Assembly (NCBI GenBank): GCA_013407085.1
Contig: JACCGJ010018819.1
Span: forward strand, 1-64,000
Direction of reading: 5' to 3'
From: Atriophallophorus winterbourni
Lineage: Eukaryota > Platyhelminthes > Trematoda > Plagiorchiida > Microphallidae
DNA length: 64,000 nucleotides
Program-made: the position numbers and the translations under genes
The notes under the pieces: model-generated
Database searches by the model: none
What the model was told of the DNA's origin: nothing
Seen by the model: only the letters and a program-made list of their open reading frames with translations
Shown here: in pieces, positions 361-50,450 of the stretch
Layout of the letters: each line of letters opens with the position of its first letter
How positions within the stretch are numbered: the first letter of the stretch is position 1

Positions 361-470
361 ACAACTCTTTGTACCCCCCTTCTCGCTTTGTACATCTCAT
401 TGTTTATGTTGAACGGCACTATATCTGTATCAGATTGTGCAAATATAATATACAAGTTGATCATATAATA

Positions 471-629
471 ACAAAGTTGATCAAGACGGTCCATAATGGA
501 AGCACTGGACTCGAGTTTCGCTCTCATTTGAGCTCATCAGCAGTGCATATCCACCGCTTCGGGGGCGGGATTCGAACCCCCGACCATCGCCATTGTAGTC
601 CCATGCCTTAACGACTTGGGCTACCGTCC
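471..629 (-). mobile_element. tRNA-derived SINE with hammerhead ribozyme, copy 1
   Basis: Read on the minus strand, the element starts with a tRNA-like head (629 down to about 555) containing an A-box-like TAGCCCAAGTCG and a perfect B-box GGTTCGAATCC. Next comes a hammerhead ribozyme (553-497), then a short tail shared with the copies at 859-1150. No 3' acceptor strand pairs with the 5' GGACGGT, so this is a tRNA-derived pol III element and not a tRNA gene. The organisation matches the schistosome Sm-alpha SINE (pol III boxes plus hammerhead). Confidence 0.8.
497..553 (-). ncRNA. hammerhead ribozyme in SINE copy 1
   Basis: On the minus strand the conserved core CTGATGA is followed by stem II (GCTC, loop AAATGA, GAGC), then GAAA and a minimal stem III (ACTC/GAGT). 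The predicted cleavage site is after the GTC triplet. Stem I pairs GCACTG upstream with CAGTGC downstream, extended by TGGA/TCCA. All core nucleotides are present. A stem III this short usually works better in a dimer, as known for Sm-alpha. The structure is read from sequence; activity is inferred. Confidence 0.82.
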
Positions 630-926
630 ACCGTTTGACCGATCGCAATTAAGCGTTTATGAACTGTTCTCCGGACTGGCACATTTGAGTAGCTTTGTTT
701 GCCCGACCAGTTCAGAAGGAGCCAGCAATATCTATTGTGGTCGCCCAACTGAACAGATCTCCGCGTCAGGTCTTCCCATCAGATACAGTGTAAGCTAACA
801 CCGATTAGATCTGATGGGCATTGTTGTTTTAAGCGATATTTGGAGAATAAGTTGTTTATATTTGTGACTACTCATCCGTGCCAAGCCCATCGAACTATTC
901 ACAAAGTTGATCACGACGGTCCATAA

Positions 927-983
927 TGGAAGCACTGGACTCGAGTTTCGATCTTATTAGAGCTCATCAGCAGTGCATATCCA
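927..983 (-). ncRNA. hammerhead ribozyme, left arm (stem II mismatch)
   Basis: Same architecture as the copy at 497-553, in the minus direction. One substitution changes stem II from GCTC/GAGC to GCTC/GATC, leaving one mismatch. The core CTGATGA and GAAAC, the self-complementary stem III and the stem I strands are intact. Activity is expected to be lower than in the right arm. Confidence 0.7.
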
Positions 984-1025
984 TCGTTAAAACAACAATG
1001 GGTTCGAATCCCGCCCCCTAAGCGG

Positions 1026-1082
1026 TGGATATGCACTGCTGATGAGCTCTAATAAGAGCGAAACTCGAGTCCAGTGCTTCCA
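1026..1082 (+). ncRNA. hammerhead ribozyme, right arm
   Basis: Plus-strand copy with stem I (GCACTG/CAGTGC plus TGGA/TCCA), core CTGATGA, stem II GCTC-TAATAA-GAGC, GAAA, stem III ACTC/GAGT and cleavage triplet GTC. All required core positions are present, so it is a good candidate for an active ribozyme. Confidence 0.82.
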
Positions 1083-1309
1083 TTATGGACCGTCGTGATC
1101 AACTTTGTGAATAGTTCGATGGGCTTGGCACGGATGAGTAGTCACAAATACAAACCTATCTTTTTTTGTGAAAGCGGGAACAGTAGTGCTACATTGAACC
1201 TTATCGGGGTATAATCTTGAGATCGCCGAGTCTTAGCGCTGTGCGGAAGAGTAAGGTACAAAGAAAGTCATATTTGTAGATAAAAAACGTATATCCATTT
1301 CTATTTTCA

Positions 1310-1425
1310 TTCTTATATCTGTCTAGGCCTGTGCAGCATGACAGTACCTTAGCCCTCGTGCAGTCTATGACTGTGCACAACATTATCTGGATCAGGCTTG
1401 TGATTTTATCATCATCATATACGGC
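1310..1425 (-). repeat. Dispersed repeat family R, copy 1
   Basis: Contains the hallmark of a short family (about 210 nt in its longest copies) found many times in the window: a ctgtctaggcctg...gcag block, then a ctggatcaggcttgtg block. Other copies lie near 2200, 2490, 24830, 25095, 25550, 29624, 32880, 33995 and 37990. No pol III boxes, coding capacity or clear terminal repeats were recognised, so the class (SINE or MITE) is open. Strand sign is arbitrary: the 37.99-kb copy is taken as plus. Confidence 0.7.
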
Positions 1426-2199
1426 TGTGCAGCATCTTTGCATGGATTCCAGTATGTGAATACATGCACAAAATATATCCGATAGATTGCCTAATAAACG
1501 CTTCAAAAAAGCAAGAATATAAATATTACTGGATGAACAAATTGCTGAAATGTGAGAAGGCAAAGCAACCCATTTGTAGAAAATATCTACATTGAAACTT
1601 GAAATAACCCATCAAAAGCGAATGAAAACTAACCCGAGGACCTATTTGGAGCACAATTATGGTTAGTTTGAATCTATCTAAATCCAAAACAATATGGGAT
1701 TAAATGATTTCACATAGCTAGTTTATTCGTAAAACATTTCTGAATAACGATTACAACTCTCGCCCATTAGCTCAAGCATCTCTTGTAGAAAACTAATTTA
1801 AGATGAATTTTATCTCATAAAATTTTGGGCACGCAAATTTCGTGTAATTATGTTTCGCTTCAAATAGCGTACTAAGTCTAATTGCTAATCACAGTAGAAT
1901 TTTGGTTTTCGGCTCTCGGGGCAACGGAGACACGTGGATACTTGTTTCGCTTAAACGGGGGTTCTGAATATTACCTTGTGTTGATATCTGAATTGAACTA
2001 AGCTAAAAAGAATACGGATAATCCCTAACTATGATATACGCTGCGACCAAAAGATAGCCCTAAGACATCTCAAAGAATAGATTAGTACAAACATTTTTTT
2101 GGAATTTATTGAAAGTCTAATGAACCTGTGTTATTAATAACTAGTGAAATAAGAACTGTCAGTCAAAATGAGATGTTGTTTTATGTATGTATGAAACCA

Positions 2200-7900: not shown

Positions 7901-7969
7901 TAGCCATAAGCCCAACCCTCCTCCTTTCTCAGACGGGCTTCGAACCGTCCTTGGCGGAGTTACACAGTC

Positions 7970-17829: not shown

Positions 17830-18690
17830 AAACAATGTTGTTACACAGCCCCCTCCCAAGAAGTCTGGTCAGAGGAGACTTCTGATCAGGAATTGACAAT
17901 TGAACTGGCCAAGCGGTGTCAGGTCGTTCCAGGCTGGAACATAGTCTCTCAGCAACCAGTAACTTCGAAGTCAGCCAAGGCACTTGATCTGCGTGGGTCG
18001 ATTGTCGGTGGTGACCAGGGTAGGATACACGAAAAACCGATCAGTACTAAGCCAAGTCACGTCTCACATGGAGTGAACGTGCTGCCGGAGCCGAATCACA
18101 TGGGGTGAACGAGCTGCTAGCGGGAATCGCCCGTCTGGCATGGTCTTAGTATGAACCCAGTAGGAGCAGATGTAGGCACATCCGTAGGCTTGACAACGAA
18201 GAACCAGAAGCTTCGAAAACATAGTCCGTGCTGAGAAGTTCCTGCACCCCCAGGGTCGATGGCGAACGGCCTCGCCTGGAGAAAGCTGAGTGGCGTGTCG
18301 TCGGGCTGGTAAGGACCTTGTCTGATAAGTTTCGTGTTGGGCGGCGTGTGCTGATGGTAGGGGCTACCGGAAGGATGGCGACAGGCGTCGGCGATCCGGG
18401 GGTGGCGCGTGCCACGATTTCCACAGCGGGAGGTACATGCGTACAGAGGGGATACACGAAGGATGCGTGTATTCCAGGTTACCGGATAGGATGTCGACAA
18501 GCGTCGGTGATCCGGGGGTGGCGCGTGCCACGATTTCCACTGCGGGAGGTGCATGTGTACCTGAGAAGTGAGAAGAAGAAAAAACTCTCTGGTGCATGGG
18601 TTTATGGCCACGACCGATTTTCCATAAGTAAAGCTTCCACAATCCTACAATCACAACATATCCCATGCACATTACCGGCTTTAGTCGTTT
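17830..18690. repeat. GC-rich unit with 116-bp tandem repeat, fused upstream of Gypsy gag
   Basis: Composition changes sharply from AT-rich to GC-rich. A block around gatccgggggtggcgcgtgc starts at 18393 and again at 18509, giving a period of 116 bp over about two units. The open reading frame of the downstream Gypsy element runs through this block from 18228, but its residues there are repeat-derived ([20 protein letters not shown]). It is probably a different repeat joined to a 5'-truncated retrotransposon. Confidence 0.6.
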
Positions 18691-20612
18691 CTAATCTCCC
18701 TCTTTGGTTCGGCCAAATTGAAGCTATCTTTCGTATATATGGCATCACCAATGAATCTATTATGTATTCTCATTTGGTGACCCTGCTCCCTCTCGACGTA
18801 GCTGAACAAGTCAGTGATCTAATTTATGCTATGTCTGAGGTCAAGCCATACGAAAAGCTCAAATCCGCTCTAATAGACCGAATTGGTTTTTCTGAGCAAG
18901 AGAAGCTCAACGTCATCTTTTCCAAAATGGCTCTTGGTGACAAAAAGCCATCTCAGCTTCTTCGCCAGATGAAAGAGCTACTTGGAGACAGAAGGATTAA
19001 GGAGAGCATTTTAACACAGTTGTGGTTTAAAAACCTCCCAACTGACATTTGCCAAGTGCTTGCTGGTTTGATTACATACGTATCATTAGACGAACTAGCA
19101 CAAGCGGCTGACAAAATGCTCGAAACAAAAGAAGCCGACCACACATCCGCACACATCAAATCGCCCTGCCTATGTTCGGAATTAAAAGAAAAAGTCGCTG
19201 AACTAACTCTTGCGGCGAACTCTCTTCTGTCAAAATCTCCCAACCCACCTCGCTCAAAATCTAAATCTCGACCATCGGAAACCCCTGAGCGCGTATGTTG
19301 GTACCACAAGAGATATGGGGATAAAGCCTCGAAATGCATCTTCCCGTGTTCAAAAACCGTCAAAATCAAGGGTCAATCAGTTACGGCGACTACTGTTCCC
19401 GGCCTACCAAACCCGAGTCGCCTATTCTATGTTACAGACAAATCGAGTGGTCTGCGTTTTCTAGTCGATACTGGCGCTGAAATTAGCGTCATACCTCCAA
19501 CATCCAGCACCTCCAAACCGTCGTCCTACACTCTTCAAGCGGCAAATGGCACTCGTATTAACACTTACGGCCAACGCCTGCTAACCCTCAACGTAGGACT
19601 AAGACGCAGTTTTCCCTGGGTGTTTCTCATCGCGGAGGTAAATTGCCCAATAATCGGCATCGACTTTCTGTCTCACTTCGGTCTAACTGTCGAAGTAAAA
19701 CAGCGGAGATTAGTAGATACGAAAACCTCTTTACAGGTCTCAGGTATCACTACTAAAGCCATTTCCTCCGGCATCAAAGCTGTCACTCCAGAAGCTTCGA
19801 CTTTTAGTGCTATACTGCATGAATTTCCATCCGTCATGCAGCCCCCAAGACCGACAGACAAAGTGACACACTCCGTGAAACATCACATTGTCACTAGCGG
19901 ACCACCAGTCTCCTTCAGACCTAGGCGACTTCACCCGTCGAAACTCAAAATCGCAAGAGCCGAATTTGAGCACATGCTAGAGCTTGGGATCATCCGTCCC
20001 TCTTCCAGCTCTTGGTCGTCACCACTTCATGTGGTTCCCAAGAAGACCTCAGATGACTGGAGGCCATGTGGCGACTATCGTGCTCTCAACAACCGAACGG
20101 TCCCCGACAGATATCCGGTGCCACACATCCACGATTTCTCTTTGAATCTTTGTGCCACGACGATACTTACTAAGCTTGATCTCGTCCGTGCTTATTATCA
20201 CATCCCGGTAGCCGAGGAAGACATACCCAAAACGGCAGTCACGACTCCTTTCGGCTTATACGAATTCACTCGGATGCCCTTTGGCCTGAGAAACGCTGCA
20301 CAAACCTTCCAACGTTTCATCGACGAAGTCTTGCGAGGCTTGCCGTTTGCCTACGCATACATCGACGACGTCTTGATTGCCAGCAACTCTCCAGAGGAGC
20401 ATGTCGAGCACATCCGTCTCGTTTTAGAGCGTTTCGTTAACTACGGGATAAAGATCAACACAAGTAAATGCATTTTCGGCACAGATTCACTGGACTTCCT
20501 CGGTCATCGCCTTACTCGATCTGGTATCACACCTCTTCCCGAGAAATGCCAGGCGATTTCCGACTTTCCTGTCCCCACAACGGTAACCAGTTGCGCCGCT
20601 TTATCGGCATGA
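18690..20612 (+). pseudogene. Gypsy (CsRn1-type) gag-protease-RT, frameshifted
   Basis: The gag homology starts near [20 protein letters not shown]. The nucleocapsid motif is [18 protein letters not shown] (about 19294-19347): C-x2-H-x9-C-x3-C, the CHCC variant that defines the CsRn1 clade first described from Clonorchis. Protease [13 protein letters not shown] is at about 19459. RT motifs are [24 protein letters not shown] and the catalytic YIDDVLIAS near 20357. The frame is lost near 20590, where RT meets RNase H, apparently by a single-base deletion, and stops at 20612. The upstream 462 nt of the open frame are not gag-like. LTR retrotransposon, host-genomic; not a functional copy. Confidence 0.88.
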
Positions 20613-22516
20613 TCAACTTTTACCGTCGCTTTATTCCAAACTGCGCAAAGATCATTGCACCGCTGACCGATTTGCTCGACTCCAAATCAAAATCACTACA
20701 GCTTTCGTCAGAGGCACTTGAAGCTTTCGCCGCATCCAAAAAAGCTCTTTGCAGTGCCACAGAACTCTCATTCATTGATCCGGAACCGACCTTTCCTTTG
20801 TCATTGACGACCGATGCCTCCAATTCGGCTGTGGGAGCTGTTTTACAACAACACCACAAGAACACAGTCCGTCCACTGGCATTTTTCTCGCAAAAGCTTA
20901 ATCCGGCACAAACTCGCTACAGCACATTTGGCCGTGAATTACTTGCGATATATTTGGCCATACGACATTTCCGTCATTTACTGGAAGGTCGTGACTTCAT
21001 TATCTTTACGGATCACAAACCATTGACTTTTGCTCTGCAGTCTAAACTTGATCGTCATTCGCCACGCGAGATTCGCCACTTAGATTACATCTCTCAGTTC
21101 TCTACCGATATTCGTTACATCAAAGGAGATGCGAACTTGGTTGCCGATGCTTTATCAAGACCTGACATTTCTGTTTTGTCTACAGGCACACCATTTGATC
21201 TCTCCCTTTTGACTAACCATCAAGCCGAGATTGATAAAACCGAACTCGCGAAGTGTCGATCCCTGGATTTGCAGCAAATTCAGTTACCAAACGCCGATGC
21301 CTCGTTGACGTGCGATATCTCGACAGGGAAACCTAGACCTCTTGTCCCTCTTTCTCTGCGACGTGCCATTTTCGATCATTTTCATTCGATGTCTCATCCT
21401 GGAAAGCGTGCCACCGTGAGGCTAATCGCAGATCGTTTTGTTTTGCCGTCCATGAATAAGGATATACGAAATTGGGTCCAGCATTGCATTCCTTGTCAAA
21501 AGAACAAGATATCTCGACATACCTTCACACCTTACGTTCCATTTAGGCATCCCAACTGTCGATTCTCTCATGTGCATCTTGATCTCGTCGGTCCTATGCC
21601 ATCATCGAACGGATACTCATTCATCCTAACGGCGATTGATCGCTTTACTCGATGGCCGATTGCTGTTCCGATCAAAGACACATGTTCAGAGACTGTAGCA
21701 CGCGCCTTCGTCGAACATTGGATTGCCAATTTTGGCACACCATCTGTCATCACAACCGACCGTGGCGCTCAGTTTCAATCGACTCTGTTCCGAGATTTGA
21801 CGCGACTCCTTGGCTGTCAGCACATACGAACCACCGCCTACCACCCTAACTCGAACGGATTGGTTGAACGCTTCCATCGGCAGCTTAAAGCCTCTTTAGC
21901 TTGCCAGCCTGATCCTAATAAATGGACTGAGAATTTGCCACTTGTTCTTCTTGGAATACGTTCCGCTATCAAAGAAGACATGCAGTGCTCAGCCGCAGAG
22001 TTAGTTTTTGGTACCGCCTTGTGTCTTCCCGGTGAACTCGTTGTGCCCTGCCAGTCACTACCTCCGGCGTCAGATTACATTTCTCGCTTGCGATCGTTCA
22101 TGTCCAAGTTGGACTTTACGCCTCCTCGTCAGCGCATTATCCACCAACAAAAATCACCTCATCTTGATACGTGTGATTTTGTTTTTGTGCGACGCGACTC
22201 TGTTTGTAAACCTCTTCAGTCATCCTATCACGGACCTCACAGAGTTATCGAGCGTAAACACAAGTTCTTCGTTTTGGATATGAATGGTCGACGTGACACA
22301 GTTTCTATTGACCGCTTAAAACCCGCTTTTGTCGAGCTTAAGCCGCAATCTCCACCAAGCATCACTACGCCTCACGCACAACCCCCTGATAATCCTCATG
22401 CGCCAACCTCCACCCATGTTCATCCTAATTCCCCGGTCCCTCCTACCCCCGTTCAAACCCGAACCGGTAGACATGTGCATTGGCCCAAACGCCTTGCTGA
22501 CTACGTGACCTTATGA
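20595..22516 (+). pseudogene. Gypsy (CsRn1-type) RNase H-integrase
   Basis: Continues the element in another frame after the break (the open frame itself extends back to 20468). [19 protein letters not shown] sequence begins the connection domain. RNase H shows TTDASNSAVGAVLQQ and FTDHKPL. The integrase zinc finger is HPGKR...HCIPCQKNK (H-H-C-C). The catalytic core shows DLVGPMPSSNGYSFIL, VITTDRGAQFQS and HPNSNGLVERFHRQLK (D, D, E). The C-terminus is proline-rich. Apart from the frame break, this part is open for over 600 codons, so the insertion is relatively young compared with the LINEs around it. Confidence 0.9.
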
Positions 22517-25093: not shown

Positions 25094-25320
25094 ACGGATG
25101 TGCAATCGCACAGTACTTCTGTGCTGTGCGGCTAACACCGTGCTAAATTGATTGGCCAATGGTGGTGAGCTGCATGCTAAAACAGGCTGCAGTCTCACTA
25201 CCATTTCTATTTTCTTTTTATCTGTCTAGGCCTGGGCAACCTCACAGTATCATAGCCCACTTGCAGTCTCTGACTGTACGGCACTTTGCCTGGATCAGGC
25301 TTGTGCTTTCATACATCATA
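25094..25320 (-). repeat. Family R, near full-length copy
   Basis: Runs from a gtgcaatcgcacagtac end through gagctgcatgct, the tctgtctaggcctgggcaac block and ctggatcaggcttgtgc. With the copy at 32880-33085 and the reverse copy at 37990-38205, it defines a unit of roughly 210 nt. Confidence 0.75.
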
Positions 25321-25551
25321 TTATATTTGATGAAAAAACAAAAAATCGCATGCAGTGAAACTACAAAAAACAAGCTGCTTTTTGCCCATTTGCTTTCACA
25401 TATGCCACTTGCCCGCTTTCCTGTTTTTCACGCGCTTGCTTATCTGCTTTTCCTGCTTCATGTTGCTTGGCACTTTTTCTGACTTATGACTTTTGCGTCA
25501 TGATGATGATTATTATCTTTGCTCACGTGCAGTTTTGGCTGTGCGCGGCTG

Positions 25552-25742: not shown

Positions 25743-25801
25743 ATGCCAGAACAGACATGCTCAGACGAAGCTTCGTTGCGTTCGTTTATTGCTGCGAACA
25801 A
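25743..25801 (+). CDS. GLRX3: Glutaredoxin-3-like (PICOT) gene, exon 1
   Basis: Start codon ATG at 25743, directly after a splice-acceptor-like tgtattttcag. The start is therefore at the first base after an acceptor, fitting either a 5' UTR intron or spliced-leader trans-splicing, which is common in trematodes. It encodes MPEQTCSDEASLRSFIAANK with the last codon split. The donor is aa|gtacgt. The following intron is only 28 nt (25802-25829), in line with the very short introns known near 5' ends of flatworm genes. GLRX3/PICOT proteins carry iron-sulfur clusters and work in cytosolic iron homeostasis. Confidence 0.8.
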
Positions 25802-26666
25802 GTACGTATTTTGCCAGTTTCATATACAGGCCATGTGTATTCAATTTCACTGCCTCGTGGGCTCCACAGCACCAGCAGGTCATTGACGTCTTGGGGTTGC
25901 TTTCCAAAGAAACGGGAAATCTTAGCATCAATTTCATCCACGTAAGTTTTACGCTCACAGTGGGTTCACGTTTGCATGGTTACTGCAGAGCAACACCTAC
26001 ACGAGCTTCTGTGTTGTTTACAGTTAACCGTAAATCGAAAGCATTCCTTTCCTGACCCACTTCCAAAGCAACGTTGATGGGTCCTCAAAGAACGCTAACA
26101 ACCTTGTTTCTCCTCTGAAGTTTTCCTTTTATAATATTATTATAATTATCGATGTTGTTGGTATTTGAATAAACGTGTAGGTATAATATCACACATTCAA
26201 AGCCTAGTCAAGCACCGCAAATTCATTGACTGCACGTGTTCTGACATACGATTGGGATGTCCTGGCCCTGATAAAATAAAATGCTAACAGACGTGGAACT
26301 TAAACAACTACGAAATCTAAATGAGATTAAGCTCAAACAAATCAGGGGAGAGCCAGACAGATATAGGAAATTATTAGTGACAGTGAGACTTGCTTCTTTC
26401 CTCTATTTCATATCAAACCACTGGGGCCATACTGCCCGTGCTTATTATCGGCTTCGTTACCACGAAGATGTATCATCATGATGAAGCACAAGTCTGGAGC
26501 CAGACAAAGTGCCAAGCTGCATTAAGTTGTATATGTTATGTGATTTCGCCCGTTAGGCATGGTAGTAGGCTGCCAAGGTTATTTTCTCTTATTTGTCGTT
26601 ACCCATTTCACGCCGACATATCTGGTTATAAGGTTTAGCACCCCTTTTACTGTCTTTTGCGGCTGT
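25776..26666 (+). repeat. Tandem duplication block A (first copy)
   Basis: About 891 nt matching 27386-28276 at a constant offset of 1,610 nt, with few substitutions and no indel noticed. It includes the 3' half of exon 1, the 28-nt intron, exon 2 and about 725 nt of the following intron. It ends at ...ggctgt, where a retroelement has been inserted. Confidence 0.9.
25830..25941 (+). CDS. GLRX3: Glutaredoxin-3-like gene, exon 2 (thioredoxin-like domain), copy A
   Basis: Reading in phase from exon 1, it encodes PCVFNFTASWAPQHQQVIDV followed by LGLLSKETGNLSINFIH. It aligns with the N-terminal thioredoxin fold of PICOT proteins, where human has WAPQC. Here the last position is His, so the single thioredoxin-site cysteine is absent. 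The donor cac|gtaagt is phase 0 and joins exon 3 to give the expected F-I-H-V-D-A-E. A second copy of this exon lies 1,610 nt downstream. Confidence 0.83.
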
Positions 26667-27217: not shown

Positions 27218-27385
27218 GTGGCGGGCATAGATCTTCACCATTGTGCTTTCGCGGTTCAATTTATTACTGATGACAAATCAGTTCAGTACAGTGTGACATG
27301 TGCAGCACATAATTATTGCACGATTGTACAACAGTGTCCCGATCTTATTATTTTAGTATGGCTGATTGCGCATCCTTCACGTTCT
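27218..27385 (+). repeat. Tandem duplication block B (first copy)
   Basis: Matches 28275-28434 with a small indel of about 8 nt. Begins gtggcgggcatag (second copy gtggcaggcatag) and ends ccttcacgttc, where it abuts the second copy of block A. The ancestral unit is thus A+B, about 1.05 kb. Confidence 0.82.
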
Positions 27386-28276
27386 TTGCGTTCATTTATT
27401 GCTGCGAACAAGTACGTATTTTGCCAGTTTCATATACAGGCCATGTGTATTCAATTTCACTGCCTCATGGGCTCCACAGCACCAGCAGGTTATTGTCGTC
27501 TTGGGGTTGCTTTCCAAAGAAACGGAAAATCTTAGCATTAATTTCATCCACGTAAGTTTTACGCTCACAGTGGGTTCACGTTTGCATGGTTACTGCAGAG
27601 CAACACCTACACGAGCTTCGGTGTTGTTTACAGTTAACCGTAAATCGAAAGCATTCCTTTCCTGACCCACTTCCAAAGCAACGTTGTTGGGTCCTCAAAG
27701 AATGCTAACAACCTTCTTTCTCCTCTGAAGTTTTCCTTTTATAATATTATTATAATTATCGATGTTGTTGGTATTTGAATAAACGTGTAGGTTTAATATC
27801 ACACATTCAAAGCCTAGTCAAGCACCGTAAATTCATTGACTGCACGTGTTCTGACATACGATTGGGATGTCCTGGCCCTGATAAAATAAAATGCTAACAG
27901 ACGTGGAACTTAAACAACTACGAAATCTAAATGAGATTAAGCTCAAACAAATCAGGGGACAGCCAGACAGATATCGGAAATTATTAGTGACAGTGAGACT
28001 TGCTTCTTTCTTCTATTTCATATCAAACCACTGGGGCCATACTGCCCGTGCTTATTATCGGCTTCGTTACCACGAAGATGTATCATCATGATGAAGCACA
28101 AGTCTGGAGCCAGACAAAGTGCCAAGCTGCATTAAGTTGTATATGTTATGTGATTTCGCCCGTTAGGCATGGTAGTAGGCTGCCAAGGTTATTTTCTCTT
28201 ATTTGTCGTTAACCATTTCACGCCGACATATCTGGTTATAAGGTTTAGCAACCCTTTTACTGTCATTTGCGGCTGT
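27386..28276 (+). repeat. Tandem duplication block A (second copy)
   Basis: Second copy of 25776-26666. Its left edge falls inside the old exon 1, so the start codon and the first codons of exon 1 are not repeated; the sequence to the left is block B. A few bases of microhomology (ttc) lie at the junction. Confidence 0.9.
27440..27551 (+). CDS. Glutaredoxin-3-like gene, duplicated thioredoxin exon (exon 2'), copy B
   Basis: Same splice acceptor, donor and phase as exon 2. It encodes the same peptide with Asp to Val (VIDV to VIVV) and Gly to Glu (KETGN to KETEN). It could be spliced from exon 1 in place of exon 2. Inclusion of both would break the frame: exon 2 ends in phase 0 and exon 2' begins in phase 2. 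Hence it is either a mutually exclusive alternative exon or a silent duplicate. Confidence 0.55.
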
Positions 28277-28774: not shown

Positions 28775-28900
28775 TGCAAGGCTCACTGAACCTAATATTA
28801 CTGTCTCCACCTGATGACGGCAAACAGCCAGAAACCGGTAGTGGTGCGTAAGTGTGGGTGATGTGAGCAACACATTACTTTGGTAATGCGTTTATTTCGC
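28775..28900 (+). repeat. Dispersed repeat family P with hammerhead-like core, copy 1 (intron of GLRX3-like gene)
   Basis: Shares the ctgtctccacctgatgacgg block and the gtgagcaacacattactttgg block with copies at 50.07-50.16 kb (-), 50.21-50.45 kb (+), 38.21-38.40 kb (+, partial) and decayed ones near 60.3 and 63.6 kb. It lies inside intron 3 of the glutaredoxin gene, in the sense orientation. Confidence 0.75.
28805..28846 (+). ncRNA. Hammerhead-like motif in family P, copy 1
   Basis: CTCCAC then the core CTGATGA, a hairpin CGGC-AAACA-GCCA as stem II (three G-C pairs, with one C/A mismatch next to the core), GAAA, stem III ACC/GGT, the cleavage position A after GGT, and GTGGTG pairing with the upstream CCAC as stem I. 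This fits a type I hammerhead with a minimal stem III, like the SINE hammerheads and those described in Penelope-like elements. The weak pair at the base of stem II leaves activity uncertain. Confidence 0.55.
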
Positions 28901-29363: not shown

Positions 29364-29623
29364 GTATGCACCTGTCGCTGCTATCATGGATGTTTGTGAC
29401 TTCATTGCCTGTCATTCTTCCACTGTACGATAATATATTTCCCACAAACAGAACAGTTAATTTTGTATACAACTTTATTTCTCCCTTTTGCAACCGTGTC
29501 CTCGATGTTTACCAGCAGACTACTCAGAGTTGATGTCTTGCGCTGATCTCGGTAGATATGGAGCAAAAAGGACATGAATTCAATAGAAATAAAACTGAAC
29601 TCATTGCCAGGTATGGTACGAAA

Positions 29624-29720
29624 GCAAAAGCCTGATCCAGGCAAAGTGCCGCACAGTCATAGACTGCATGTGGGCTAAGATACTGTCAGGTTGCTTAGGC
29701 CTAGACAGATATTAGGAAGA
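29624..29720 (+). repeat. Family R, partial copy in intron 4
   Basis: cctgatccaggcaaagtgcc, then ctaagatactgtcaggttgc and ggcctagacagatat, in the orientation of the 37.99-kb copy. The outer third is missing. Confidence 0.7.
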
Positions 29721-30504
29721 AAAAAGAACTGGACGGAAGTCGTCGCATTCAAGGATTTCTCAAACCGTGATATTCAACGCCACAGTCGATCAACTAGCAT
29801 GTTATTTTAGTGTTATTTACGGACCAACGAGGATGCCAATACCAGTAGATGAAATCGAACGCAATAGGTAAATTCGAAGGATCCCCATCACCAATTTGCT
29901 TCGGAAGAAGTTTCGTTAATGATGTCATCCAGGCGAAATGTCATTTATTCACTCTAGCTGTACAACGGTGTTCCTTACAAGGCATAACGGGGGACACCCA
30001 CCGAACATTAAACAAACCAATTGCCAATCTAGTTTTCAAGCGATTTGTCAGTATAGATTTGCTTGCTTTGTAGCCCAGCTTTACTTATCCATGTTCGTAT
30101 AATTTCATCTTGGCTGCAATATAGCAAATCACCCCGTATTGTCTATCGACTAGCCTCCCTATGACAATGTCAAGCTGCCGTTGACTTCTAACCGACCTCC
30201 TAAACTGATAACGCGTTCACTGTACTTGTTATTCATTTCTCTCTTTGTTAAACCGGTAGCTATGTTTTATTTTCTGCTTTGAGGACCGATGTGACATATA
30301 TTTTAGGATGATTGAAATTTCAATCATTCATTTGGGTTATTTTTCTCATTTATTTATTGAATTTGCCACCGCGACATGCATCCTAACATGTTTAGCATTG
30401 TGTTCAATTGCCTATTGACCTTAAGTGTGACAGAAATGCGAGCAAGCGAGTATTTTAGTGCTGATTTATCTTCTTTCATATGTCACCGCTGTTGTTTTTC
30501 GTAG

Positions 30505-32879: not shown

Positions 32880-33085
32880 GGCTCAATTTACTGTACTGTA
32901 GTACGCGTGTGCAATCGTGCTAAATTGATTGTCACCCGTTGCGAGCTGCATGCTGAAACACGCTGGAGTCTCAGTACCATTTCTATTTTCTTTCTGTCCT
33001 GGCCTGGGGAACCTGACAGTATCTTAACCCACGTACAGTCTCTGACTGTGTGGCACCTTTCTTGGATCAAGCTTGTGCTTCCATA
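32880..33085 (-). repeat. Family R, near full-length copy (intron of LIM gene)
   Basis: gtgcaatcgtgctaaattga, then gagctgcatgctgaaacacg, ggcctggggaacctgacag and ttggatcaagcttgtgc. Same order as the copy at 25094-25320. Confidence 0.75.
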
Positions 33086-33109
33086 CCATCGTACCATACT
33101 GTAGTTCGC

Positions 33110-37904: not shown

Positions 37905-38400
37905 CATACCCTGTACTTGCACACCACAACCGGTTTGTGGATGTTTATATATGTTTACCGTCATCATTCGGAGATATATATGACATAAAAAGTACAAGCC
38001 TGATCCAGGAAAAGTGCCGCACAGTCAGAGACTGCACGAGGGCTAAGATACTGTCAGGTTGCCCAGGCCTAGACAGATATGAGGAAGAAAAAATAACAGG
38101 AAATGTTAGTGAGACTCCAGCGATTTTCGGGATGCAGCTCACTACGGGTGGCTAATCAATTTAGCACGGTGTTAGCCGCAAAGCACAGAAGTACTGCACA
38201 ATTGCATATTCAGAAATAGCCAGAAACCGGTTCTGCTGTGTACGTATACGTGGAATGTGAGCAACATTTTACTTTGGTTTATTCTAAGCGTCTTGTCCGT
38301 TTGACGACAAATCACGTCGTGATTCTCTATATAAAAACCGTATTTAACAGTGGCTTCAAAGTGTAACTTGATTTCGGTTAATGTTCGTATTCATGTGCAA
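37905..38400 (+). repeat. Composite repeat: family P fragments flanking a full family R copy
   Basis: A minus-oriented family P fragment (caccacaaccggtttgtgg, about 37918) is followed by a full family R copy in plus orientation (37990-38205). Next is a 5'-truncated family P copy (agccagaaaccggttctgct, 38218 onward) that includes the ttctctatataaaaaccg block also seen, diverged, at 50.35 kb. Family R appears to have been inserted into or next to family P. Confidence 0.65.
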
Positions 38401-49438: not shown

Positions 49439-50069
49439 GAGTGATCTATTCGCGTTACAATAATGCAACTGATTAACGGCTCTATGTTGGAATCTAAACC
49501 TCTGGATTTCGACAATTTAGTCTGCATTAAGTTGTTCATATGCTGAATATATGATGTTGTTACATATAGAGCAATTTTCTAGCATTTTATTTGTCGCAAT
49601 ATCTACCGATAGACACTGACAATTCGGTAGAACATCATTTTTCGGAAGTGATATAGGTTCAACTTGATCGCGATAGTAAAATATGTCCATCTCTACACAA
49701 AGTCATTTTCTCAATATCTCTCCCTCCTGATTGACTGCCACGCGTTGATATATTTATACAAATCACATTTGATATGCAACCACTGGGATACAGCAAATAC
49801 AATATTTCTTGACGTCATTAATTTGTCGCACAGGCAAACGACAATCAGCAACTTGTTTTCGTGAGATGTCAACACGCCAAGTTCCTTTCCACTTTCGCTG
49901 CTTTGTAGGAGCAAGCTTCCATGTTCACAATAACATACATAATTCTCAACTAGATTTGAAGTATATGAAAAGATTTGTTCCACAAATACGATGCAATTTT
50001 AAATTAGATGTAGCACATTCCATTTTTTCTGCGAGTACCAATACCAACCGTGTAAAGTTTTAGTGGAAT

Positions 50070-50160
50070 ACCAAAGTAATGTGGTGCTCACATCCCCCGC
50101 ACCTACACACCACTACCGGGGTCCGGCTGTTTGCCGTCATGAGGTGGAGACAGTAAGATT
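50070..50160 (-). repeat. Family P, inverted copy
   Basis: Minus-oriented copy facing the plus copy at 50214. Its hammerhead-like core (50108-50149) is degraded: CTGATGA became CTCATGA and GAAACC became GACCCC. Confidence 0.75.
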
Positions 50161-50213
50161 AGTTACAGTGAGCCCTGAAACAATGGATAAGTGGTAAACA
50201 AAGTTACAGTTGA

Positions 50214-50450
50214 ATGCCTAATTTTACTGTCTCCACCTGATGACGGCAAACAGCCAGAAACCGGTAGAGGTGTGTACGTGCGGGGTGTGTGAGCAACACA
50301 TTACTTTGGTCATCCATAAGCGCCATGAATGCTTGACCAGGAATCACTATGCGATTCTGTATTTGAACACTGTGGTTCGTGGTACGAACCCTATGTAACA
50401 GTGGCATTCAAGTATAACTTTGTTTTCGTGGAATACTTACATTGGGTCTT
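50214..50450 (+). repeat. Family P, longest copy
   Basis: Includes the hammerhead-like block and extends through gtgagcaacacattactttgg, catgaatgcttgaccagg and cagtggcattcaagtataac, parallel to 38.25-38.37 kb. Together with the copy at 50070 it forms an inverted pair with a spacer of about 50 nt. Confidence 0.75.
50231..50272 (+). ncRNA. Hammerhead-like motif in family P, copy 2
   Basis: CTCCAC, CTGATGA, stem II GGC/GCC, GAAA and stem III ACC/GGT as in the 28.8-kb copy. Here the downstream stem I strand is GAGGTG, giving one mismatch. Confidence 0.5.

Follow-up and report, generated by a model that had tools for sequence, protein, structure and literature searches.

The systems closest to the locus described here are the metazoan non-LTR retrozymes, the Sm-alpha (W36.2) and Sj-alpha elements of schistosomes, and the Penelope-like elements. 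Retrozymes, as set out in PMC7229834, carry a type I hammerhead in tandem units of 150-450 bp with a GC content below 50%, have TSDs of more than 4 bp when these are present, and give rise to a structured RNA; circular RNA is known for other metazoan retrozymes, and platyhelminths are named among the hosts (PMC7229834). Sm-alpha and Sj-alpha (PMC2770079, PMC8490949) likewise possess a type I hammerhead and occur as dispersed copies and tandem arrays, the unit of Sm-alpha measuring 332-335 nt (PMC8490949) and its head being reported as derived from tRNA-Gln-TTG (PMC2770079). As for Penelope, of which the Anolis protein was purified from E. coli (PMC11167929), a purified protein cuts and extends both target strands, and reverse transcription (RT) starts at two adjacent internal sites that lie in an AC-rich stem loop and are separated by an optional genomic tail of 30-40 bp (PMC11167929). 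Counted from the beginning of the ORF, the commonest RT start is at 111-118 nt and the hammerhead cut at 26 nt (PMC11167929), which places the two about 85-92 nt apart. Rotifer Penelope copies, according to PMC3846280, are flanked by pLTRs in inverted, head-to-head orientation, with TSDs of 8-10 bp, and one of the pLTRs may carry a 31-bp tail. On the basis of shared features and co-occurrence, Penelope has been proposed as the mobiliser of retrozymes (PMC7229834, PMC7761336, and PMC11722881), and a search of the open-access literature returned no report of a Penelope footprint in retrozyme insertions.

The locus examined here lies near the start of a stretch of 64,000 nucleotides from the trematode Atriophallophorus winterbourni, which as a whole is referred to as the window. 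The original prediction had read it as three copies of a SINE. Copies 1 and 2, both on the minus strand, lie at a distance of exactly 430 nt and form the two ends of one complete unit (937-508), and copy 3 resides in the inverted arm of a duplication that spans 854-1155. Three independent copies were consequently rejected, as two of the hammerheads delimit a single unit; the feature is better read as a single insertion of a retroelement whose two arms span about 1.2 and 0.36 units. Its parts are as follows, positions within the unit being prefixed with u:

508-937, minus strand: complete retrozyme unit of 430 nt, from cleavage site to cleavage site, as delimited by end-to-end alignment with a tandem unit of locus L032 (97.4%)
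938-986, minus strand: truncated upstream neighbour unit (u382-430), by mapping onto the unit
471-507, minus strand: trailing partial unit (u1-37), whose end falls short of sites A and B and is hence not canonical
1000-1155, plus strand: head-to-head inverted arm (u359-430, u1-84), ending at site A
502-546, minus strand: hammerhead copy 1, type I (RF00163, 36.1 bits, E 2.3e-5, cut-off 34), predicted cut between 508 and 507
932-976, minus strand: hammerhead copy 2, with limits carried over from copy 1 by analogy and the cut predicted between 938 and 937
1033-1077, plus strand: hammerhead copy 3, type I, in the inverted arm (RF00163, 35.6 bits, E 3.3e-5, cut-off 34)
565-629, minus strand: tRNA-like head inside the unit (u309-u373), tRNA alignment score 67 against a maximum of 49 in 300 shuffles
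612-623, minus strand: A-box-like sequence TAGCCCAAGTCG (u315-326)
568-578, minus strand: B box GGTTCGAATCC (u360-370), no mismatch to the searched pattern
819-866, minus strand: AC-rich loop (u72-119) holding sites A and B, longer than any other unpaired stretch in the predicted RNA circle
854-858, minus strand: site A, putative RT start (u80-84), ...GTCACAAATATAAA, where many genomic copies end
827-830, minus strand: site B, putative RT start (u108-111), ...CAAATATCGCTTAAA, about 26 nt 3' of site A

A cmscan of the 64-kb window at the curated threshold returned the two RF00163 matches listed above and no further match, the middle copy (932-976, minus strand) remaining below the cut-off. The originally predicted hammerheads are confirmed in all three copies, the first and third of which pass the type I model. 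CTGATGA, GAAA, the GTC cleavage site, and a stem III of ACTC/GAGT, the latter precisely as foreseen, occur in all three copies, whereas the earlier count of two copies with a complete core was too low, since the middle copy also keeps its core bases (946-970, located by pattern) and differs in stem II instead (GCTC/GATC, one mismatch). Under a permissive threshold, the top Rfam match of all three was Hammerhead_HH9 (RF02275), which we take to be the amniote intronic hammerhead, at 35.3-40.9 bits and thus under its cut-off of 52 (35.3 bits for the middle copy; 37.0 against 36.1 and 40.9 against 35.6 bits for HH9 and RF00163, respectively, in the two copies passing RF00163). The window copies have the HH9 core and its stem II GCUC/GAGC, but their stem III is a loopless palindrome. 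For amniote hammerheads, a domestication from retroelements has been suggested (PMC6155905).

Throughout the host genome (537,331,230 bases in 15,840 contigs), the 33-base hammerhead pattern CTGATGAGNTCNAANNANAGCGAAACTCGAGTC has 1058 exact matches (549 + 509), and the same pattern read backwards has none (0 + 0), which argues that the pattern is not due to chance. Bacterial and archaeal contigs, scanned for one 36-base pattern, gave no match. In the Rfam search of the genome, 27 of the 32 listed matches exceeded the cut-off (74 of 96317 candidates were scored, and some of the 32 are of the Penelope type). Judged by these scores and counts, the hammerheads of the window are real and well above chance.

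In the fetched loci, which partly overlap, neighbouring hammerheads are spaced by 428 (n=3), 429 (n=4), 430 (n=16), or 431 nt (n=1), and twice by 857 nt. The 24 hammerhead-to-hammerhead units found in tandem in these overlapping loci represent 15 distinct unit sequences, and one array (C15381) comprises at least 7.1 units. The GC content was 47.9% in one tandem unit, and the unit RNA is predicted to be structured (z -6.1 against 60 shuffles). Hence, with a type I hammerhead in short tandem units bordered by TSDs, the family agrees with the metazoan non-LTR retrozymes in hammerhead type, unit size, GC content, TSDs, and structured RNA, and departs from them, as far as they are described in PMC7229834, by its tRNA-like pol III head, its two clusters of 3' ends, and its head-to-head pairs. 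With Sm-alpha and Sj-alpha it has in common the hammerhead type, the dispersed copies, and the tandem arrays (PMC2770079, PMC8490949), and with Sm-alpha also the tRNA-derived head (PMC2770079). The unit of 428-431 nt, however, exceeds that given for Sm-alpha by PMC8490949, and the head is closest to Ile or Lys in a panel of 23 tRNAs, as opposed to the Gln reported in PMC2770079. The family is therefore related to Sm-alpha in design but apparently not the same, in line with the earlier suspicion of a related but separate family.

The tRNA-like head itself is located inside the unit, with 33 nt between the A-box-like sequence and the B box, both upstream of the hammerhead. In the panel of 23 tRNAs, the best scores were 67-68, with Ile-AAT for the window and Lys-TTT for a second subfamily (L092), and Gln was outside the six best for either subfamily; ARAGORN and Rfam called neither a tRNA nor a cloverleaf at the head. 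The predicted union of pol III head and hammerhead in three copies applies in full only to the first copy, which has both boxes, whereas the third has the B box alone (1001-1011) and the middle one, truncated at 986, has no head. In the L032 unit, the only one checked, TTTT is absent, so that pol III would not stop inside it, and transcription by pol III from the head may be envisaged. Although the boxes of a tRNA-derived SINE are present, its 5' head is not: 5' ends scatter over the unit, and 14 of 90 arms, of about one unit in length, start near u56-108 instead of at the head. A SINE with a 5' head and a single hammerhead was accordingly rejected, as the head is in mid-unit, the 5' ends vary, and the units are tandem. 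The genome search for full-length copies and their head, which the original prediction had called for, found plentiful copies, the full-length ones not starting just upstream of the A box.

Insertions were collected from loci obtained by the Rfam search (L001-L028), by similarity to positions 460-660 of the window (L029-L058), and by taking the first 52 occurrences of the hammerhead pattern in exact form (L059-L108), a choice that favours hammerhead-bearing copies. Mapping L001-L108 onto the window unit yielded 110 insertions, 16 of which were dropped as flank duplicates; 15 of the remaining 94 with distinct flanks were cut by a locus or contig end and excluded, leaving 79 complete distinct insertions, which are not a random sample of the genome. 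A further 16 fresh loci were picked without the hammerhead, and these are biased to long arrays and near-identical copies.

Conservation of the ribozyme was assessed in copies of both samples, the original prediction having counted on a core that does not mutate at random across the genome. In 21 copies that had never been search bait in any locus, differences from the window affect 18 of 294 sites within the 14 core positions, compared to 238 of 1464 well outside the ribozyme (p 2e-6), whereas in 15 young copies from the fresh loci the core (6 of 210, 2.9%) does not differ significantly from the outside (54 of 1202, 4.5%; p 0.35). Intact cores were present in 9 of the 21 and in 11 of the 15 copies. 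The stems and near flanks of the hammerhead were not more conserved than the rest in the non-bait copies (228 of 1365, 16.7%, against 16.3%). This pattern suggests that the core is kept between subfamilies and drifts after insertion, as in a mobile element.

The outer 3' ends of the 79 complete insertions (n=101) are clustered, as 87 fall at u70-125, namely 39 at u77-86, 28 at u104-114, 12 between these, and 8 in the rest of that region, with 14 outside. Sites A and B are positioned 80-84 and 108-111 nt beyond the hammerhead cut, and the stretch between them is an optional tail. The segment u73-121 consists of 71% A+C and has a predicted mean unpaired probability of 0.84, compared to 0.40 overall, ranking 4 of 381 segments.

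With respect to orientation, 30 of the 79 insertions are plus, 25 minus, 22 head-to-head (-+), one ++, and one --, and none is tail-to-tail (22:0 for head-to-head, p 5e-7). Both outer ends lie within u70-125 in 16 of the 22 head-to-head pairs, and the other six, including the window's own, have one outer end outside. LINE twin priming produces non-overlapping arms; it was rejected here, since the arms overlap by at least 15 nt of the unit in 21 of the 22 pairs (the exception being L063), which are thus not the product of one linear twin-primed RNA. Furthermore, the outer borders share at least 9 bp in 9 of the 22 pairs (1.7% in mismatched controls) and in 19 of the 57 other insertions (1.4%). 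The 28 shared borders of at least 9 bp are richer in A+T than the window (72% against 60%). At the window's own copy, the borders have fewer than 7 bp in common. Borders of 9-15 bp indicate that the pairs bearing them, at any rate, each arose in a single event, with both ends of the target presumably priming a copy. One fresh locus (L111) also contains a head-to-head pair, which ends at A on one side and at B on the other and whose outer borders, compared by eye, share 15 bp.

Whether the two arms of a pair prefer different sites is at most suggestive. When ends that pass u76 without the tail are assigned to class A, and the right end of L005 is called A by eye against its score, the 16 classifiable among 26 pairs comprise ten AB, four AA, and two BB, a distribution short of significance (p 0.10 if the end frequencies are taken from non-pairs and 0.21 if taken from pairs); the values become 0.036 and 0.09 after one reclassification, and 0.021 and 0.06 when L111 is added. 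The 63 classed non-pair ends, cut ones included, comprise 39 A, 18 B, and 6 that are not anchored.

These features are shared to a large extent with Penelope-like elements. Common to both are the hammerhead, the AC-rich loop, AT-rich targets, a second start site after the tail, head-to-head inverted copies, short TSDs, and partial tandems, and the spacing between hammerhead cut and RT start is 80-84 nt in the unit, where the start is putative, and about 85-92 nt in Penelope, the comparison of loop and spacing having been made after the ends were mapped. Two adjacent start sites and head-to-head copies within one TSD, as expected of a Penelope-mobilised element, are found at the frequencies given above (87 of 101 ends, 22 of 79 insertions, and 9 of 22 borders). 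In contrast to Penelope-like elements, the unit has a canonical stem III and a tRNA-like head, and it is too short for a Penelope ORF, as 430 nt cannot encode both a reverse transcriptase and a GIY-YIG endonuclease. As read from ends, arms, and borders, the insertion marks are Penelope-like rather than LINE-like, and we infer a mobilisation by Penelope.

We therefore consider it probable that the 430-nt unit is a non-autonomous retrozyme of the metazoan type, moved by a Penelope-like protein that primes at site A or B. Such a unit would combine a tRNA-like pol III promoter, a type I hammerhead, and an AC-rich RT start module 80-110 nt past the cut. RNA transcribed from tandem copies would be cleaved by the hammerhead into 430-nt monomers, probably closed into circles, and the Penelope-like protein, with its reverse transcriptase and GIY-YIG endonuclease, would cut both strands of an AT-rich target. 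Internal priming at A or B and extension of one target end might then result in a single or tandem insertion, whereas extension of both ends, with the two cDNAs meeting, might generate a head-to-head pair flanked by a single TSD. The arrays, as well as copies that continue across the cleavage site, require an uncut, multimeric, or circular template, and by analogy to other retrozymes a circular RNA is the likely one. In the first sample, 14 of 90 arms formed a peak at 0.94-1.04 units, that is, one turn; this peak was not borne out as proof of a circular template in the 16 fresh loci, a sample biased to long arrays, of which three stop at one turn (L111, L122, and L123, the flank of L122 being already in the first sample) and nine (L113-L121) continue to the edge of the stretch, past 1.2 units.

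Among the alternatives, the one that survives best, albeit as an unlikely one, is that the unit is no unrelated retrozyme using the machinery of Penelope but an internally deleted Penelope-like element, reduced to a bare pLTR that gained a tRNA head. Hammerhead, site A, tail, and site B follow each other in the order and spacing reported for Penelope, and a derivation of retrozymes from Penelope by reduction, as proposed in the review PMC11722881, would fit this origin. Penelope hammerheads, however, lack stem III, whereas that of the unit has one and is scored by Rfam as type I or HH9. Somewhat more doubtful still is a tRNA-derived SINE of the ordinary sort, which pol III would transcribe from the head and a LINE would move through single-ended target-primed reverse transcription, the hammerhead being incidental. 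Its A- and B-box-like sequences and tRNA-like head would be expected of such a SINE, and copies moved by a LINE likewise show 3' ends in clusters, 5' ends that vary, and TSD-like borders such as those of 9-15 bp seen here. Yet the head lies inside a tandem unit, the 5' ends do not start at it or just upstream of the A box, and head-to-head pairs make up 22 of the 79 insertions, both outer ends falling in the start region in 16 pairs and the arms overlapping in 21; moreover, two start sites about 26 nt apart are a reported trait of Penelope. It is very improbable that the units are mere satellite DNA, propagated through unequal crossing over and segmental duplication without an RNA step: arrays of at least 7.1 units and recurring flanks (16 of 110 insertions removed as duplicates) would suit this view, but TSD-like borders, clustered 3' ends, and 94 distinct flanks would not.

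Returning to the favoured reading of a retrozyme moved by a Penelope-like protein, we looked for relatives of that protein in the host genome. The GIY-YIG profile search yielded 17 matches at E<=1e-3, all over the cut-off (150 of 1370 candidates were scored), with examples on contigs C3643, C3257, and C5959; the family is widespread, having matches in 12 of the 14 control genomes (all prokaryotic) as well, so that a match alone is no proof of Penelope. Locus L125 has a GIY-YIG match at 1402-1653 (minus strand) reading IYIINCKDCSGVYIGQTSREIHTRIKKH, with the YIG motif YIGQTSR, and L079 has an endonuclease-like piece at 454-681 (minus strand), with the motif YIGQTGR, to which a Pfam scan assigned no family; both pieces are presumably of the Penelope type. 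The window and the fetched loci, several of the latter having been obtained through the search for hammerheads itself, contain 16 stem-III-less hammerheads of the Penelope type. Minimal stem-III-less hammerheads form a third family (e.g. CTGATGAGTGCAAACAGGACGAAACCGGTC), observed in L019, L020, L021, L023, L025, L028, L047, L101, and L107, with two units 246 nt apart in L025.

Several other repeats were noted in the window. A second hammerhead family, in which the cleavage base is changed to A (CTGATGACGGCAAACAGCCAGAAACCGGTA), occupies 28777-28887 and 50069-50313; within the latter, 50069-50177 (minus strand) and 50217-50313 (plus strand) are arranged head-to-head, and three 3' ends of the family stop at about the same point (...CATTACTTTGG). 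At 7912-7966 (minus strand) there is a Type-P1 twister-like match (38 bits, cut-off 67.2, E 1e-4), the core of which contains GGTTCGAAGCC, a B-box match, and the sequence downstream of it looks, by eye, like a non-LTR reverse transcriptase near its end; RTE elements with truncated twisters at their 5' ends are mentioned in PMC7761336. At 18225-22516 (plus strand), two overlapping frames of a Gypsy-type element encode protease-like, RT, RNase H, and integrase domains. Among the best 120 of 6719 relatives of its protein, the top two are 66-67% identical, and the named ones are mostly from flatworms at 46-58%, including Sparganum, Hymenolepis, Spirometra, Dicrocoelium, Trichobilharzia, Heterobilharzia, and Schistosoma, which by itself points to a flatworm as the probable host. 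In addition, the window holds a direct repeat of 895 bases (25772-26666 and 27382-28276, 97.9% identical) and a dispersed repeat of about 80-240 bases, with copies 72-93% identical, at 1291-1407, 2214-2337, 2477-2569, 25098-25326, 29613-29733, 32916-33089, and 37974-38209.

Marks of the Penelope-like kind would explain how animal retrozymes are copied. More than 1000 hammerhead matches in a single genome allowed the insertion marks to be read, and those of the sampled copies agree with the in vitro action of a purified Penelope protein. A broader proposition, on which we are evenly divided, is that animal retrozymes are the SINEs of Penelope, that the hammerhead and the next 110 nt constitute a module recognised by Penelope, and that both cut ends of a target prime copies from the RNA circle made by the ribozyme, giving rise to tandem and head-to-head insertions with one TSD. 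The footprint described here suggests why Penelope elements and retrozymes both place their hammerheads about 80-90 nt before the start site.
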